From assembly GCA_017459795.1 (NCBI GenBank), contig JAFUCG010000024.1:1-54993 (forward strand): a DNA stretch of 54,993 nucleotides. Direction: 5' to 3'. This document shows, one piece after another, positions 40,871 to 54,993 of the stretch (positions are counted from its first letter, which is position 1; each line of letters opens with the position of its first letter). A program made the position numbers and the translations under genes. The DNA comes from Erysipelotrichaceae bacterium. Its GTDB lineage: Bacteria; Bacillota_I; Bacilli_A; Erysipelotrichales; Erysipelotrichaceae. The notes under the pieces are model-generated. The model made no database searches. It was not told the origin of the DNA and saw only the letters and a list, made by a program, of their open reading frames with translations.

Positions 40871-40898
40871 GCATAAGAAAAGAGGTTTTCACCTCTTA
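40871..40898 (-). terminator. terminator of the M32 carboxypeptidase gene
   Basis: On the minus strand AAGAGGT-GAAA-ACCTCTT followed by TTCTTATG; the stem overlaps the stop codon at 40896. Confidence 0.65.
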
Positions 40899-42398
40899 TT
40901 TCTTTATGCCGTATAATCTTGAATACTTATTCTTCAGATAACCGATGTAATAACGAGGATTGAAGTCTTCACCTGTTGCGATCTTTATCTGTTCAAGCGG
41001 TGTATTCAAACCGCCGTATTTATGAATGTGTTCCTTTAACCATTCCTTGATCTTGATGAATTCATTGTTTCTCATGCACTCATCAATGTTGATGTCTTTG
41101 CTCATGGCTCTGACAAACTGGGCTGCGTAGCCGCTTCCCAAGGCATATGTAGGGAAATAACCGAAGCTTCCACCTGACCAGTGAACATCCTGTAAAATGC
41201 CTTCTGAAGCCTTCTGAGGCCTTACACCGAGGTACTCTTCATACTTGTTGTTCCAGATATTCTCTAAATCATTAACATCGACCGTACCATCAAATATGCC
41301 TTTTTCAATTTCATATCTGATGAGGATATGCAATGGATAAGTCAGCTCATCTGCTTCCGTTCTGATGAGTGAACATTCAGTAGCGTTGGCGGCCTTGATG
41401 AAATCACTCTGACTGACGTCATTAAGCTGTTCAGGGAAAAGTTCCTTCATATATGGGAATAAGTTATCCCAGAATGAACTTCTTCTGGCCAGATAGTTTT
41501 CCATTAGGCGTGATTGCGATTCATGCATGCCGCTGCTCATGTTATCGAACAGATATGTTTCTGCCAGTTCATCAGATACCTGATAGTTATATGTTGCGTG
41601 ACCTGCCTCATGTACTACTGAGAAGATTGAACTTAACAGATTGTTCTCATAGTAATGAGTCGTAATACGGTTGTCTCCCTTACTGATGGAATTGGTAAAT
41701 GGGTGTTCAGTTTCAGAAATCAGACCGGCTTCCAAATCAAAGTTCATGTATTCAAGGATCTTGTTCATCATCTTGCGTTGAATTTCAGCCGGATAGTTAC
41801 GGTAGACAAAGTCATTTCTGATCTTTTCCTTACCGCTTATTTCCTTGATGAGAGGAACCAGTTCCTTCTTGATGAGATCAAAGAACTCATCATACTTCTC
41901 AATGGTCATGCCCGGTTCATAGTCACCGAGATAGACATTGTAGCCTTCAACATCACTGTGACGGTATTCAAGCAGTTTCTTGCTCATTTCAATGATTCTT
42001 AAAAGATAAGGTTCAAACATCTTATAATCATCATTGTTCTTGGCCTTTTCCCAAGCCTGACTTGATTCAAGAGCCAGCTGACTGTATTCAACATACAGAT
42101 CCTATGGCACATATCTGATGGCTTCCAGATCCTTTAGCTGCCATTTGATCGTTCTGGCCTGTTCAAAGCTCAGGTCTTCTCTTCTGCTTAACTCTTCCAG
42201 TAATTCGATGAATTCTGGAGCAGTCTGTAGGGAAAACATTTCACCGTAAAGATATGAAACTCTTGGGTTACGGTAAGCATCTCCCTTAACAGGTGCAATT
42301 GTCTCAGCATCAAATTCAACTGTGCTCAAAGCCAGTTTATAAGCTGAAATCTTAAACATTTCAGCTTCATACTTTTCCCATAATTCTCTTGTTTCCAT
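40896..42398 (-). pseudogene. M32 metallocarboxypeptidase, interrupted by one in-frame UAG
   Basis: Read through, the frame gives a 500-residue protein, the normal M32 length. It is cut by a TAG at 42102-42104, after AIRYVP, into a 98-residue N-terminal part and the remainder; the 27 codons between the TAG and the next ATG continue in the same frame with family-like sequence (DLYVEYSQLALESSQAWEKA). The catalytic region is intact: VVHEAGHATYNY with the HExxH zinc motif and MHESQSRLMEN with the third ligand. An AAG, CAG or GAG to TAG change would explain it. M32 enzymes trim C-terminal residues from cytoplasmic peptides. Either a recent null mutation, a sequencing error or read-through. The stop of the upstream pyrophosphatase gene is 4 bases before its ATG. 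Confidence 0.88.
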
Positions 42399-42402
42399 GT
42401 TG

Positions 42403-44022
42403 TTATTTCTCCTCTGCCACCTTTGTCAGTACAGGAATGATCTGCAGTTTTCTGCTCATTACCTTTGGTAAGAACAGATACCCGTCAACATTAACTGCTT
42501 TATCTTCAAAGGCATAATCGACAATTGTAGCTTCTACCCCGCTTCTTAATACATATGATCCAGTGCCGTCAATTAATGAGAATACCATCATGCAGATGTC
42601 AAAACCATTGGCCTTGGCATACTGATCCAGATGCTTATTCATCTTATCTTTCAGGGCAATGATGTCTTCAAAATGAACGATGTTGATCTGACCTACTGCT
42701 ACTCTGAGCTTGGCTATTTCAAACTTCTTAAGGTCATGATTCAGAATGGATTCAACACTCTTATTAGCCAGATTTGCTCCAGCACTTAAGATCTTCGGTC
42801 CTAGTTTTTCAATGTTCAAACCCGCGATCTTTGCCAGCATGTTGGCCTTTTCGATATCAGTCTGTGTGCATGTTACACTCTTGAAGTTAAGTGTATCGGA
42901 AATGATGGCGCAACATAGTAAGCCTGCCAGATCATCAGGAATCTCTACATTATTCTCTTCAAATATCTTGGTAATGATCGTTGCACAGCTTCCGGTCTGT
43001 TCCGTACGGAAGTATACCGGTGAGCTGGTCTTTATGCCGCCGATTCTGTGATGGTCAATGATTTCCAGAACATTGGCATTCTCAGCCCCATCAATACTCT
43101 GAGCAAATTCGTTATGGTCAACCATGATCAGATTACGGTTATTGTGCTGGAAGATGTGGAATCTTGATAACATGCCGATGACATGATCATTGGTGTCAAT
43201 TATAGGATAACTACGGAATCTTGAACGGTTGATCTTAACCTTGACATCATCAATGTAGTCGTCATATCTGAATGTAGTTGTATTGGTTGTCATTAACATG
43301 CTGACAGGAATTGCCAGGTCGAGTTCTCTGTTTACATCATAAATGTCAAAGTCAGTCAGAAGAACCGTACACTGCTTTTCATGTGCCATTTTTATGATGT
43401 CTTCACCACAATCCTTGCCGACGATGATCATCATTCTGGCTCCTGCCTCAATGACTTCTCTTTCTCTTTCCGGGTTGTCAGAAACAACGACGATTCTGTC
43501 CTGACATTCCAGGTTATGATAGCTTGCTACATAAACCTTGCCGTTTGAAGTGTTGCCATAATCAACGACTATTTCCGCATTCAATGCTCTTACAATGTAG
43601 TCCAACGGTGTCTTGGCTAATAGAATGTGCTTGTAGTGACGGTCTAATATGGCCGGTTTACTGATATCTGATAAAGTAACAACACCAAGTAAGTGACGGT
43701 CCTTATCTGTTACCGCAATTACCTTCTTACTGTTGGCTATCATCAGATCAAGAACCTTTCTCAAGTCGTCTTCAGGCCTACATAAAACAACATCGTCAAA
43801 GTCGATGTCTCTTACACAGGTTCTGATGTCGTTAGCCAATGGTGGTGCGAATTCGTTAAATAAGTTCAGAATATATTCTGTTTCTGGATTTACTGCCCCC
43901 GCTCTTACTGCTATGGCATCATAGCCCATCTGCTGTTTGAAATAAGCATAGGCCATCGCTGAAATAATAGCATCCGAGTCAGGGTTCTTATGTCCTGTAA
44001 CGTATATTGTTTTTCTTGCCAT
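42403..44022 (-). CDS. ppaC: manganese-dependent inorganic pyrophosphatase with CBS-DRTGG insert
   Basis: 539 residues, much longer than plain family II pyrophosphatases (~310). DHH domain: VTGHKNPDSDAIISA at the start, EIIDHHRIGG and CAIISDTLNFKS later, and the DHHA2 domain at the C-terminus. In between lie two CBS domains (about 70-130 and 240-300) around a DRTGG-like domain. Relatives are inhibited or activated by AMP, ADP and diadenosine polyphosphates through the CBS pair. The enzyme hydrolyses PPi to phosphate and needs Mn2+ or Co2+, which links it to the PPi-phosphofructokinase and to the manganese genes nearby. Co-transcribed with the M32 gene. Confidence 0.93.
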   Translation of the reverse strand: MARKTIYVTGHKNPDSDAIISAMAYAYFKQQMGYDAIAVRAGAVNPETEYILNLFNEFAPPLANDIRTCVRDIDFDDVVLCRPEDDLRKVLDLMIANSKKVIAVTDKDRHLLGVVTLSDISKPAILDRHYKHILLAKTPLDYIVRALNAEIVVDYGNTSNGKVYVASYHNLECQDRIVVVSDNPEREREVIEAGARMMIIVGKDCGEDIIKMAHEKQCTVLLTDFDIYDVNRELDLAIPVSMLMTTNTTTFRYDDYIDDVKVKINRSRFRSYPIIDTNDHVIGMLSRFHIFQHNNRNLIMVDHNEFAQSIDGAENANVLEIIDHHRIGGIKTSSPVYFRTEQTGSCATIITKIFEENNVEIPDDLAGLLCCAIISDTLNFKSVTCTQTDIEKANMLAKIAGLNIEKLGPKILSAGANLANKSVESILNHDLKKFEIAKLRVAVGQINIVHFEDIIALKDKMNKHLDQYAKANGFDICMMVFSLIDGTGSYVLRSGVEATIVDYAFEDKAVNVDGYLFLPKVMSRKLQIIPVLTKVAEEK

Positions 44023-50533: not shown

Positions 50534-50555
50534 AAAAAGCACTCAGGTGCTTTTT
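50534..50555. terminator. bidirectional terminator
   Basis: AAAAAGCAC-TCAG-GTGCTTTTT between the HMA gene and the convergent DUF4956 gene. Confidence 0.8.
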
Positions 50556-51219
50556 ACATTCCAAAATCGTTATTGTAGCTTACCAGGTTAATGTTCTTGA
50601 CGCCTTCTACAGCCTGAATATTGCTCATTAAGCCATCAGTTGTCTTGCCGTATTCAATTTCGTAGGTTGCTTCAATGATTCTCTGGTCACTTAATGACTT
50701 GCTCTTTAACTTCTTGCTCTTGATGGCGCCTAAGGCTGTCTGTACTGCTTCTTCAGCAACGTCGTGATATCTGATAACCAATAGATACTGTGACTTGGCC
50801 TTACTGCCAACCAGATAGAATGCGTAATAGGCAATGCCTAATAATAATGAACCAACAATGGAAATGACATATAAGCCAGCACCTGACATGATACCGGCAG
50901 TGATTGCCCAGAACATGAAGGCTGTATCAACAGGTTCCTTGATGGCTGTTCTGAAACGGACGATTGACAATGCACCAACCATGCCAAGAGAAAGAGACAG
51001 GTTGGAATTAATTGTTCTTATGATCATTGCGGTTACCATTGCCAGTAACATGATGCATAAGGTCATTGTTCTGTTATAAACGATACCTGAGAATGTCTTG
51101 CGGTAAACGAATATGATGAACAGTGATACAGCGAACGCAACTAACAAAGATGTGATTATCATAGTTACCGTAACCGGTCCATTGAACTGTTCTAATAATA
51201 AATTCATGATAGATTCCAT
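50554..51219 (-). CDS. DUF4956 membrane protein
   Basis: 221 residues. Several membrane helices at 18-140 and the conserved block LGMVGALSIVRFRTAIKEP, diagnostic of DUF4956. The C-terminal ~75 residues form a cytosolic alpha-beta domain (LLVIRYHDVAEEAVQTALGAI, then EATYEIEYGK). Function unknown; the family is regularly found beside VTC-domain and CotH proteins, as here. The GTPase-like name has no support. Last gene of the CotH-VTC-DUF4956 unit, 14 bases after the VTC gene. Confidence 0.88.
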   Translation of the reverse strand: MESIMNLLLEQFNGPVTVTMIITSLLVAFAVSLFIIFVYRKTFSGIVYNRTMTLCIMLLAMVTAMIIRTINSNLSLSLGMVGALSIVRFRTAIKEPVDTAFMFWAITAGIMSGAGLYVISIVGSLLLGIAYYAFYLVGSKAKSQYLLVIRYHDVAEEAVQTALGAIKSKKLKSKSLSDQRIIEATYEIEYGKTTDGLMSNIQAVEGVKNINLVSYNNDFGM

Positions 51220-51233
51220 ATTTAGCTCTCCTT

Positions 51234-51923
51234 CTACTTAATACTGCGGCATAAAGCAAACTTGCTGACCGCCTGTCTTACCATCGGCACTGAATTTAAT
51301 ATGCTTAATATGTGTGCCGGAATAAACTCATTGCACTTAACTTCCAATACCTGCTGACCGTCATCCAATACATCATAGGTCATCATGTTTTCATCAAACA
51401 GACTGACATTGTAACGGCCGCTTCTGATCTCGCTGTCAAAAGTTATTCTGACATCACTGACCGGATAGACAAACGCCAGTCTCTTGTAATCTACTATTAC
51501 ACTTGGTCTTAAATTCTTAACAGTTGCTTCAGCAAGGAAGCGGTTTAAGAAGTCGTTATTGGTTTTAATTGCCCCATACTTGCCATCAAGAATGGCTTCA
51601 ATCAATTCCCTCTTTAACGTGCAGTCTTCCTTGTAAGTCATGTTTTCATCCTTATGCTTACATTCAAGTTTGATCACACTGTCGTCACCGTTATAGTATC
51701 TTATTCTGTACTTGCTGCGGTATTCTACCCCATCCAGTTTATCGAAATATGCATTGGAATAAATGTCATCAAAGTACAGACTTCTTATCTTGTATGAATA
51801 TTCCTTGCCTACAGAATGTTCATCAAGATCCATTACCTGTTTCAACTGATTTTTAAGTAACTCTGCTACCTGATCAGATATTACAAACTTCAGTTCATAT
51901 CTGTATTCTACATCTCTTACCAT
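51234..51923 (-). CDS. VTC-domain polyphosphate-polymerase-like protein
   Basis: 229 residues, soluble. Opening YRYELKFVIS, then YKIRSLYFDDIYSNAYFDK, RSKYRIRYYNGDD, IKLECKHKDEN, DYKRLAFVYP, VRITFDSEIRSG and VLEVKCNEFIP: the full row of charged tunnel residues of the VTC/CYTH superfamily, which in yeast Vtc4 makes polyphosphate from ATP. Alternating Arg/Lys/Glu suggest an active nucleotide-triphosphate tunnel. It overlaps the CotH gene by 7 bases and lies just ahead of the DUF4956 gene. Activity as a polymerase is inferred, not shown; bacterial VTC proteins are little studied. Confidence 0.88.
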   Translation of the reverse strand: MVRDVEYRYELKFVISDQVAELLKNQLKQVMDLDEHSVGKEYSYKIRSLYFDDIYSNAYFDKLDGVEYRSKYRIRYYNGDDSVIKLECKHKDENMTYKEDCTLKRELIEAILDGKYGAIKTNNDFLNRFLAEATVKNLRPSVIVDYKRLAFVYPVSDVRITFDSEIRSGRYNVSLFDENMMTYDVLDDGQQVLEVKCNEFIPAHILSILNSVPMVRQAVSKFALCRSIK

Positions 51924-54808
51924 AAGTCACCAAACAATTCCGTCATTCTGGCATCGCTTAAGCCAAAGAAGCTTTTGGTAGAGGCTAACAGATAGTAAGT
52001 TCTTCTGCTGGCATAGCCACGAAGATCTTCAACATTGCTTTCCCACCAGTCAACAGTCAGGCCCCATTCAGCCTGGTTACGCGGCATTTCAGGCAGTAGT
52101 TTGTCGTGTAACATGTTTATCGTATTTACAACATTCTCTTCATTGAAAATGTTCTTAACAAGGTATGACAGTCTTTCAAGCCACATTTCACAGAATTTGT
52201 CACTCTGGAATACAGCTCTCAATATATCATTTTCAAAGGTTGCCCCATCTCCTATACCTTCCCAGTTAACCAGATAATTAGTATAGTAATTCATTCTTGA
52301 ATTATACCAGGCATAGTCAGAATCATATAGTATCCAGCGCCATCTGCCTTCATTGTATTCATCGGAAGACCAGAATCGGCAGTTAACAATGTCGTTATTT
52401 GTCGTATAGGATACGGCGATCCAGTAATCGATGAAGTTATCAATGTCGATCATTGTACACAGTTCATCAAAGTTAGCTTCATTTGCCAGATTATGGGTAT
52501 TACAGAAGTATCTTACCTGCTGGTAACCGTCATAACTGCCACTGGTAACGTCATAGTCAATTCTGACGATGTTGATTCCATCTTTGTTAATGTGGAAGTT
52601 CTCACTGAACATTGCCGGATTTATCTTTTCTCTGATGTTGTACAGTCCCCAGTATTCACCGTTTATGTATACGACACAGATCTTATAGTCCTGTACGTCA
52701 ATATTTGTCTTGCCGTCAACTAATTCCGTTGTCAGAATGTCTCTAATGTAGGCAACATCCCAGTCATTGGAACCGGTTCTTAAGACAAGAGATTCATAAA
52801 CACTGTTGTCTCTTTTATCAAATAAAGGATATTCAAGACGTCCGGCACCATATTCATCCTTGAATCTTAAGGCATATGACTTCTTGGCATGTGATCTTGT
52901 ATTACCGCCGAAACAAGCCATGGAACATGGAATGGAGAAGGAATTATCTTCTTCATATAACTCGGCATAAGCCGGTACTTCCAGGCCAATGACATCGGCA
53001 TTGTTATTGATGTAACGGAAGTCTGAATAATCAAGTGAAACAGACATTACCGGAACGGTGTGATTTTCATTAATGATATATGAGGCACAACCCATTGTAC
53101 TGGTAACTGAGCCGCTCTGATATGCCTTTGCCTTTACAACTGAAGTGCTGCTTAAGGTAATTGGTTCAGAATAAACAGGATCATAGGTTGTAGGCATTGA
53201 ACCGTCTGTAGTGTAATGGATCTCTCCCTCACCAAGTATTTCAACGGTAATGCTTTCTACATCATTATAAACACCTGCTTTAACTGAAAAGGCAGGTGTG
53301 CTTGTTACTGATCTGTTTCCTGATTCATTGTCACTCCATGGTGATGGCGATGACATGTAGAAGAAGCCGTTTTCACTGCCTCGGCCATAACTGTACCCAT
53401 ACGGTATGTTGGCAAAGAACATTGAATCGATTATCGTGCCATTCTTATATAAGTATATTGAATCAGCCTGTCCAAGTTTGAAGTCGGTATGCTTATAACT
53501 CTGGTTTGACAGGTTAACGTTACCTGAACACATGATGATGTAATACTCACCGCTTGCCAGTTCTACATCAGGCAATGTGAATGTATTTGCCCCATTCGCA
53601 TTCTTGCCAACTGAATACTGTGACAGATTTATGGTTTCAGAAGAATTGTTTCTGAATTCGATCCAGTCATAGTACTCGGTACCGTTTTGTACCATGTAGC
53701 TGTCATTCTGATTCATGATCTCATTGATGACCAGGTCATTTGGCGTACTCATGAACTTCTGCTGGAACTGGTTAATGCCATCAACGGTATTCTGATAGCC
53801 AGGAGAAACTGCACAGTCCTGAGAATATGAACCGTCATCGTTTCTGATCATGGCCATGCCGTTTGGTAAGTTTTCATAAGAAATTTCCTGAATGATCTTA
53901 CCCTGCTTGCTTAATATGATCGTTCCGTTCTTACTTACGAAATTAAAGCCGATGTATTTATCATTCTTTACCTTGCCCGTATAGAAAGAATATACTTCTC
54001 CAGCAGCCAGCTGAATCTTATCCAAAGTATACTGGAAAGGTACTTCAATACTGTCACTGATGCAGTATTCATTCAGATTAACGACATGATCTGAAACATT
54101 CTTGAATTCAATGAAGCCATCAAAGCTTCCTTCTTCACTTCTGAAGTTACCTTCATTACGAACAAGCAATTCATTTACGACAATGTCTGAACTTCCTTCA
54201 GCCAGAAGTGAATCATGGTATTTCTGTAAGCCGGCTTCGTTATTGCCATAACCAGGAGTACCATATTCGCTGACAAACCAATTGCCGTCCTTGTCACGCA
54301 TCATGGCGTTGTTCTTGCTTAAAGCTACAGTATCAACAGCGTCAATTACCTTACTGCTTGAGTTAACAATCATAACGGTTTCCTGACCCTTTGAACTTAA
54401 CTTGAAAGGGGCATTTAAACCGGCTTCCAGTTTTCCCGTCAAGGCAACAACCAGGTACTGACCCGGTTCAATGCTTGTATTGCTGAAAGCCCACTTAATT
54501 GTGTTTACCTTATCTGAAAGGCCATAACCATCTAACTTAATGGTCTTGCCTGTACCGTTATATATTTCGACGTAGTCAGTTGCTTCATTGTTGCTGTTGA
54601 CATATACGCCATCGTTATTGCTCATGATTTCAGAAATGACCAGTTCATGAATGTTATTCTCTTCATCAGCAGGTAATGGCATCGGGTTTACGGCTGATTC
54701 ACTTTGCTTTGCCAGGAAACTTACAGCTGTAAGTGCCACAATGAAAACAAGCACTACTGCGATAAATAAGAAATCAGGTTTTTTTCTGTTAACTGTTGCA
54801 CTTTTCAT
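51917..54808 (-). CDS. large surface protein with lamin-tail domains and a CotH kinase-like domain
   Basis: 963 residues. One N-terminal helix (about 12-32, FLFIAVVLVFIVALTAVSFL) anchors it outside. Then three lamin-tail-like domains: about 55-190 (LVISEIMSNNDGVYV), about 205-340 (IVVNELLVRNEGNF) and about 355-490 (LVINEIMNQNDSYMV). Then a chitobiase-like/FN3-type module (GEIHYTTDGSMPTTYDP, about 520-570) and a CotH domain (about 595-900) with LVLRTGSNDWDVAYIRDILT, YINGEYWGLYNIREKIN and WRWILYDSDYAW. The conserved Asp/Glu residues of CotH atypical protein kinases are present. CotH phosphorylates spore-coat proteins in Bacillus; here the enzyme is at the cell surface of a probable non-sporulator and may modify surface proteins. 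Confidence 0.9.
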   Translation of the reverse strand: MKSATVNRKKPDFLFIAVVLVFIVALTAVSFLAKQSESAVNPMPLPADEENNIHELVISEIMSNNDGVYVNSNNEATDYVEIYNGTGKTIKLDGYGLSDKVNTIKWAFSNTSIEPGQYLVVALTGKLEAGLNAPFKLSSKGQETVMIVNSSSKVIDAVDTVALSKNNAMMRDKDGNWFVSEYGTPGYGNNEAGLQKYHDSLLAEGSSDIVVNELLVRNEGNFRSEEGSFDGFIEFKNVSDHVVNLNEYCISDSIEVPFQYTLDKIQLAAGEVYSFYTGKVKNDKYIGFNFVSKNGTIILSKQGKIIQEISYENLPNGMAMIRNDDGSYSQDCAVSPGYQNTVDGINQFQQKFMSTPNDLVINEIMNQNDSYMVQNGTEYYDWIEFRNNSSETINLSQYSVGKNANGANTFTLPDVELASGEYYIIMCSGNVNLSNQSYKHTDFKLGQADSIYLYKNGTIIDSMFFANIPYGYSYGRGSENGFFYMSSPSPWSDNESGNRSVTSTPAFSVKAGVYNDVESITVEILGEGEIHYTTDGSMPTTYDPVYSEPITLSSTSVVKAKAYQSGSVTSTMGCASYIINENHTVPVMSVSLDYSDFRYINNNADVIGLEVPAYAELYEEDNSFSIPCSMACFGGNTRSHAKKSYALRFKDEYGAGRLEYPLFDKRDNSVYESLVLRTGSNDWDVAYIRDILTTELVDGKTNIDVQDYKICVVYINGEYWGLYNIREKINPAMFSENFHINKDGINIVRIDYDVTSGSYDGYQQVRYFCNTHNLANEANFDELCTMIDIDNFIDYWIAVSYTTNNDIVNCRFWSSDEYNEGRWRWILYDSDYAWYNSRMNYYTNYLVNWEGIGDGATFENDILRAVFQSDKFCEMWLERLSYLVKNIFNEENVVNTINMLHDKLLPEMPRNQAEWGLTVDWWESNVEDLRGYASRRTYYLLASTKSFFGLSDARMTELFGDLW

Positions 54809-54858: not shown

Positions 54859-54993
54859 TTATTCGCTTCTTAACGCTGTTACCGGATCACACTTCATGGC
54901 CATTCTTGAAGGTATCAGTCCTGCCAGCATTGTCAGTACTACACTTATGATGACTAATCTGATGCCGGTGTTCCAAGGCAAATATGCCGTCAA
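54859..54993 (-). CDS. FtsX/MacB-family ABC permease, C-terminal end (partial, runs off right edge)
   Basis: The last 44 residues plus stop are in the window: a membrane helix (RLVIISVVLTMLAGLIPS) followed by RMAMKCDPVTALRSE, the standard ending of FtsX-type permeases. It lies 50 bases before the CotH gene on the same strand, so it may belong to the same transcript. Function beyond that is out of view. Confidence 0.85.
   Translation of the reverse strand: MTAYLPWNTGIRLVIISVVLTMLAGLIPSRMAMKCDPVTALRSE

Follow-up and report, generated by a model that had tools for sequence, protein, structure and literature searches.

We analyzed contig JAFUCG010000024.1 (54,993 nucleotides; assembly GCA_017459795.1), hereafter the window, from a rumen Erysipelotrichaceae metagenome-assembled genome (MAG; assembly of 2.0 Mb in 212 contigs, completeness 95.8%). 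Our subject is a trio of tightly spaced minus-strand open reading frames (ORFs), taken from the ORF list of the window, which encode a surface protein with lamin-tail domains and a CotH kinase domain (LTD-CotH), a VTC-domain protein and a DUF4956 membrane protein. The genes, and two segments of the LTD-CotH protein, are as follows (aa, amino acids):

54808-51917, minus strand: LTD-CotH surface protein, 963 aa (ORF and Pfam)
51923-51234, minus strand: VTC-domain (triphosphate tunnel) protein, 229 aa (ORF, Pfam and VTC4 profile match)
51219-50554, minus strand: DUF4956 membrane protein, 221 aa (ORF and Pfam)
54704..54766, minus strand: predicted N-terminal membrane anchor, ~aa 15-35 of the CotH protein (read from the sequence; putative topology)
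51989..52912, minus strand: CotH kinase domain, aa 633-940 (Pfam and 5jd9 profile match)

A first-pass annotation of this DNA had placed the three families in one tight, same-strand unit, and this description held: the CotH and VTC ORFs overlap by 7 bp, VTC and DUF4956 are separated by 14 bp, and the Pfam assignments of all three proteins exceed the curated cut-offs. Linkage of the trio in relatives was far above the level expected by chance.

Sequence features of the three proteins

From its N-terminus, the LTD-CotH protein consists of a signal anchor, three lamin-tail domains, a CHB_HEX_C/Fn3-associated domain and the CotH kinase domain. Pfam matches were to LTD (three stretches, 3e-38), CHB_HEX_C_1 and CotH (3.2e-37), and the same four Pfam families were found in 16 of 16 aligned relatives. 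Since the protein begins with a short basic stretch, on the cytoplasmic side, followed by a single hydrophobic segment, the kinase domain should be extracellular. The domain profile matched the structure of Bacillus cereus CotH (5jd9) at 3.2e-39, and the kinase-domain residues are D806 (NxD), D829/D831 (DxD) and E727. In B. subtilis CotH the catalytic aspartate is D228, and a D228Q protein is inactive (PMC7821199). The catalytic D806 and the metal-binding D829 were invariant across 21 divergent CotH domains, confirming that kinase residues are retained, as the first reading had required.

The VTC protein matched Pfam VTC at 5.2e-39 (134.6 bits vs. a cut-off of 23), and a profile of 37 relatives matched yeast VTC4 at 2.2e-16. 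With the VTC4 numbering anchored on R264/R266 and K281/K294, the equivalents of VTC4 K200, R264, R266, K281, K294, R361 and R373 (here K12, R73, R75, K89, K98, R148 and R159) were invariant in all 37 sequences, while those of E426 (E194) and K428 were at least 90% conserved; the tunnel residues are thus retained, again as first proposed. The R264A/R266A/E426N mutant is the one used for the VTC complex structure (PMC9911596). K221, part of a conserved SK[FY] motif, is where the catalytic VTC4 K458 would be expected, and the hidden Markov model (HMM) alignment ends short of it. In phosphatases of the triphosphate tunnel metalloenzyme (TTM) type, glutamates hold a second metal, and VTC4 is without these glutamates (PMC4641920). 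Mapping of R8, K196 and a further residue, E10, by the ExExK pattern and the VTC4 alignment showed that the metal-site-2 glutamates (AtTTM3 Glu-2 and Glu-171) correspond to R8 (invariant) and K196 (at least 90% conserved), basic as in VTC4. Since R8 and K196 replace two of the glutamates of TTM phosphatases, the sequence favors, short of proof, an active center that is more polymerase-like than phosphatase-like. No Pfam match to an SPX domain or a VTC1-type subunit was obtained in the three window proteins. An AlphaFold model of VTC from the single sequence reached a pLDDT (predicted local distance difference test) of 38, and no fold claim rests on it.

The DUF4956 protein matched its Pfam family at 3.2e-9 (37.2 vs. 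a cut-off of 30.6 bits), as did all 37 relatives in the alignment. The protein is predicted to have five membrane helices, with the motif SLGMVGALSIVRFRTAxK, and after them an ACT/ferredoxin-like domain (aa 144-215) that is presumably cytosolic. A DUF4956-specific loop, in which R88, R90 and D98 are invariant and K94 nearly so, would also lie on the cytosolic side, judging from the charge distribution. When the DUF4956 profile was compared with an MgtC/SapB-type protein from locus L063, hhalign returned 89.9% (E 1.7e-6), vs. 0.2-0.5% for two unrelated membrane proteins. Pfam MgtC was matched weakly by 20 of the 37 relatives (best 9e-6, with E-values up to 1 accepted), and the NCBIfam MgtC score was 26.9 vs. 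a cut-off of 214. An AlphaFold model contained five helices and a ferredoxin-like C-terminal domain, which aligned with the C-terminal domains of two MgtC proteins, 7qa5 (Z 10.3, root-mean-square deviation 2.8, 83 aligned) and 2lqj (Z 9.9, deviation 3.0, 82 aligned); other ferredoxin-like folds scored equally. Foldseek of this model returned no match at E<=0.001, a search that barely tested the helical part and in which only the C-terminal domain matched ferredoxin/ACT folds. An MgtC-plus-ACT reading was reached independently for the Streptococcus intermedius DUF4956 homologue (PMC12345266).

Distribution of the VTC-DUF4956 pair and its partners

Among 148 genomes of the same order, VTC was found in 78, DUF4956 in 75 and CotH in 51. 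VTC was present in every one of the 75 DUF4956 genomes (Fisher p=3e-39) and in 47 of the 51 CotH genomes (p=4e-13), bearing out the co-occurrence that the first-pass annotation had expected. That annotation had named loss of tunnel or kinase residues and lack of co-occurrence as grounds against it; since residues and co-occurrence hold, none of its sequence-based refutations applies. A same-strand DUF4956 gene adjoins VTC in 91 of 97 VTC matches, and 89 of these 91 start 98-243 bp past the VTC domain; judged by coordinates, four of the six VTC matches without adjacent DUF4956 reach a contig end. The arrangements were VTC-DUF4956 alone (43, plus one with two DUF4956 genes), VTC-DUF4956-CotH (30), CotH-VTC-DUF4956 (16) and CotH-DUF4956-VTC (1), giving 47 trios. 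From these counts, VTC-DUF4956 is the core, a near-obligate pair, and CotH is a common third member.

Phylum-wide, among 295 genomes, CotH and VTC occurred together in 40 and one alone in 18 and 14 (p=1e-23, ignoring relatedness), and the two were sometimes unlinked. Plasmids of Pseudobutyrivibrio and Planococcus carry trios as well; in a local HMM search, Paenibacillus had a pair and the actinobacterium Nonomuraea had a trio. Members of all three families are also encoded in Corynebacterium glutamicum. CotH matches at G390:C1:138891-142229 contain many in-frame TGA codons, which suggests that TGA is translated as an amino acid in this genome.

The third partner of VTC-DUF4956 varies by clade. 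Five types were distinguished: (a) the ~965-aa LTD-CotH proteins, as in the window; (b) a ~465-aa CotH preceded by sigma factor and RsgI-type anti-sigma genes; (c) pel operons with an epimerase-domain protein, DUF2194, DUF3492/PelF, PelG, CotH and DUF4832; (d) a Cthe_2159 carbohydrate-binding lipoprotein that replaces CotH after VTC-DUF4956 (L072:7323-9098, L073:10458-11891 and L074); and (e) an exopolysaccharide cluster on the Pseudobutyrivibrio plasmid. In maximum-likelihood trees the LTD-CotH group formed one clade (support 98/95 for VTC and 96/96 for DUF4956), which takes in two loci ordered VTC-DUF4956-CotH. Partner labels changed 10 times on the VTC tree and 9 times on the DUF4956 tree, vs. 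~20 in shuffles; some deep branches of these trees are weak and the L073 branch is very long.

Two observations touch on these partners. At L063:6390-8833 and L064:5535-8233, a sigma factor and an RsgI-domain anti-sigma gene stand directly before VTC-DUF4956-CotH; RsgI proteins of cellulolytic clostridia sense polysaccharides. The window's own genome carries a second VTC gene (L058, G000:C62:49-531), cut by a contig end, which resembles the divergent VTC of the same-genus locus L073, where DUF4956 and the Cthe_2159 lipoprotein follow. From this likeness, the genus seems to hold two VTC systems.

The trio is already known in outline, from loci for the biofilm sugar Pel. Genes for CotH, a polyphosphate polymerase, DUF4956 and DUF4832 were described beside pelDEADAFG in streptococci and clostridia, with a bifidobacterial variant (Whitfield 2020; PMC7112168), and the S. 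intermedius homologues SIR_1592-1594 have been deleted (Raju 2025; PMC12345266). In one medium, loss of SIR_1592 (DUF4956-like) or SIR_1594 (CotH) brought aggregation down to less than half; the amount of Pel was raised by loss of SIR_1592 and lowered by loss of SIR_1594 (PMC12345266). The suggestion in the first-pass annotation of an undescribed system must therefore be withdrawn. The latter study states that this synteny was not found outside Pel (PMC12345266), which our counts correct: PelG scored above its cut-off in 4 of the 148 order genomes, three of which hold the Pel-linked trios, and 44 of the 47 trios are not Pel-linked, the other 3 being beside PelG. Across this order the trio belongs mainly outside Pel loci, and the window stands for a clade of its own, separate from Pel. 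It could be argued that the trio is a Pel accessory set and the window a Pel locus or remnant, considering that the same three families lie beside pelDEADAFG in streptococci, clostridia and bifidobacteria (PMC7112168) and that three genomes of this order hold Pel-linked trios; we regard this as very improbable, given the excess of trios over PelG genomes and the separate clade of the window type, and it is largely refuted by the absence of any match to PelG or PelF (DUF3492) in the window's genome (G000, a MAG incomplete at 95.8%). Since the trio stands apart from Pel in many relatives, its function is open to study apart from Pel, and a near-obligate pair that is usually away from Pel and has clade-specific surface partners offers a clean unit for testing.

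Flanking genes and viral searches

Other features of the window are as follows:

54859..54993, minus strand: 3' end of an ABC/FtsX permease gene, last 44 codons (translation)
50534..50555, minus strand: terminator-like hairpin with a T tail, 3' of DUF4956 (consensus match only)
42403-44022: DHH/DHHA2 protein that also has CBS and DRTGG domains (probable regulated inorganic pyrophosphatase)
40896-42020: M32 carboxypeptidase ORF, 374 aa, starting at profile position 120 of 489 (frameshift or truncation possible; locus L037 has a 500-aa ORF at this place)

An FtsX-type permease gene had been noted just upstream of the trio. Its end is confirmed, 50 bp upstream of CotH, and the gene belongs outside the core. 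Since the window is an entire contig, genes upstream of this end could be seen in relatives only. The closest named match to the window VTC (98% identity) is L036, from an Erysipelotrichaceae MAG of goat jejunum, in which a MarR-type regulator is followed by an ABC-ATPase+FtsX fusion of 1054 aa, whose end is 50 bp upstream of CotH. Both upstream genes are present in L036, L037, L039 and L040 and not in L041, L043 and L047; limited in this way to the nearest relatives, they are a local addition, and ABC/FtsX is probably co-transcribed with the trio in this genus. The hairpin may be shared with a convergent HMA gene; terminator-like sites numbered 6 vs. 3.1 +/- 2.2 in shuffles, which is weak evidence alone. 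A promoter scan did no better than on shuffled sequence.

A virus-borne unit was also considered and rejected, a peptide-pattern search of IMG/VR having given no VTC relative. A viral fold search returned no match at E<=0.001, and three unannotated 'phage' contigs that carry DUF4956 gave no lead. On an IMG/VR provirus contig (L079:2745-8224), a miaB-like gene and mutS enclose a VTC-DUF4956 pair that lacks CotH; this region looks like host DNA flanking a prophage.

Proposed function and comparison with known systems

We propose, tentatively, that the unit could well be a membrane-coupled phosphate-polymer module with an exported surface effector, its activity and export being putative. The conserved tunnel residues suggest that the cytosolic VTC enzyme would most likely join ATP gamma-phosphates into polyphosphate. 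The MgtC-like DUF4956 protein would hold VTC at the inner membrane face, sense a ligand through its ACT-like domain and perhaps lead the chain up to, or across, the membrane by means of the conserved basic RxRxxxK loop. Outside the cell, LTD-CotH would modify surface proteins or exopolysaccharide, either as a kinase or as a modifier derived from one, and would set cell-surface cohesion. The first-pass idea of VTC and DUF4956 as a putative membrane polymer synthase is plausible. A more specific version, in which polyphosphate made by VTC is exported via DUF4956 and surface CotH uses it, or a co-exported nucleotide, to phosphorylate surface proteins or exopolysaccharide, appears quite improbable; if polyphosphate were both made and exported, bacteria would have a vectorial polymerase like VTC, which could account for how extracellular kinases work without ATP. 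CotH also occurs in 27 of 33 VTC genomes outside the order. VTC as the donor supply for all extracellular CotH was rejected, considering that, in genomes without VTC, most CotH proteins are secreted lipoproteins too, as called by a simple hydropathy scan; within the trio itself, VTC may still supply the phosphate donor of CotH.

Several points weigh against the polymer module. The acidic-patch glutamate E10 (equivalent to AtTTM3 Glu-4), which is absent from VTC4, is invariant here and may leave room for a different TTM reaction, such as that of a phosphatase. CotH is missing from the vicinity of many VTC-DUF4956 pairs, the AlphaFold model of DUF4956 (11 sequences) is of moderate quality (pLDDT 65), and the SIR_1593 (polyphosphate polymerase) mutant still aggregated, with no change reported (PMC12345266). 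In the literature searched, no activity was found for any bacterial VTC-DUF4956 pair, nor any functional assignment for the VTC proteins of bacteria, which are widespread. Polyphosphate in bacteria is generally ascribed to polyphosphate kinase (PPK) enzymes. VTC presence was independent of PPK1 (42/36/34/36, p=0.62), so VTC is not simply a PPK substitute, and its role as a replacement for PPK1 was rejected. Since PPK1 was not found in the window's genome or its genus-mate, VTC could be the main polyphosphate source in both, PPK2 not having been searched.

Two other explanations were considered. In the first, VTC would be a TTM enzyme that hydrolyzes tripolyphosphate or processes nucleotides, and the ACT-like domain of DUF4956 would read its output; the two would form a signaling or ion/phosphate-homeostasis pair, with CotH and the other partners as regulated surface outputs. 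The resemblance of DUF4956 to MgtC, which in Salmonella regulates both ATP synthase and the uptake of phosphate (cited in PMC12345266), its ligand-type ACT fold, the invariant E10 of the ExExK-type motif and the SigI/ECF and RsgI-type regulators preceding several VTC-DUF4956-CotH units are consistent with such a pair; the two basic metal-site-2 residues, shared with VTC4, argue the other way, and we consider it somewhat unlikely. CotH could also be a catalytically idle adhesin or scaffold, and the trio an adhesion or matrix-anchoring cassette in which VTC-DUF4956 serves matrix secretion, energy or charge. The LTD and CHB_HEX_C-like domains resemble binding modules, the Cthe_2159 carbohydrate-binding lipoprotein is one alternative third gene and ATP is unexpected outside the cell, yet the two catalytic aspartates do not vary among divergent CotH domains, which leaves an idle CotH unlikely.

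Of the known systems, the Gram-positive Pel accessory genes (cotH, polyphosphate polymerase, DUF4956 and DUF4832) are alike in having the same three contiguous families, an MgtC-like protein with an ACT domain and a secreted CotH. They differ in that the window CotH is ~2x longer, with its three lamin-tail domains, no DUF4832 gene adjoins, the genome is without a PelF/PelG match, and VTC and DUF4956 form separate clades. Clostridium perfringens NELoc-2 is a VTC-'tubulin'-VTC-'tubulin'-CotH-HEAT-glycosyltransferase locus (PMC2879425), whose 'tubulin' genes are, from size and position, presumably DUF4956; a copy on the Planococcus plasmid NZ_CP059541 is annotated VTC-DUF4956-CotH. In both, VTC adjoins CotH together with a 222-226 aa membrane protein, whereas the gene order (VTC-DUF4956-CotH), short CotH and link to a glycosyltransferase cluster set them apart. 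The MgtC/SapB family shares with DUF4956 the membrane motif GxxGA and a C-terminal ferredoxin/ACT-like domain, but lacks the RxRxxxK/D loop, and DUF4956 scores far under the NCBIfam MgtC cut-off. The eukaryotic VTC4/VTC1/VTC3 complex likewise combines a cytosolic enzyme, with a homologous TTM domain and tunnel residues, and a membrane protein, whereas the window unit has no SPX domain, its partner is MgtC/DUF4956-like rather than VTC1-type, and both complex and activity are putative here. Finally, the CotH spore-coat kinase (B. cereus 5jd9) has the same kinase domain and catalytic aspartates, while the window protein is membrane-anchored, predicted to be extracellular and multi-domain, in a context other than the spore coat.

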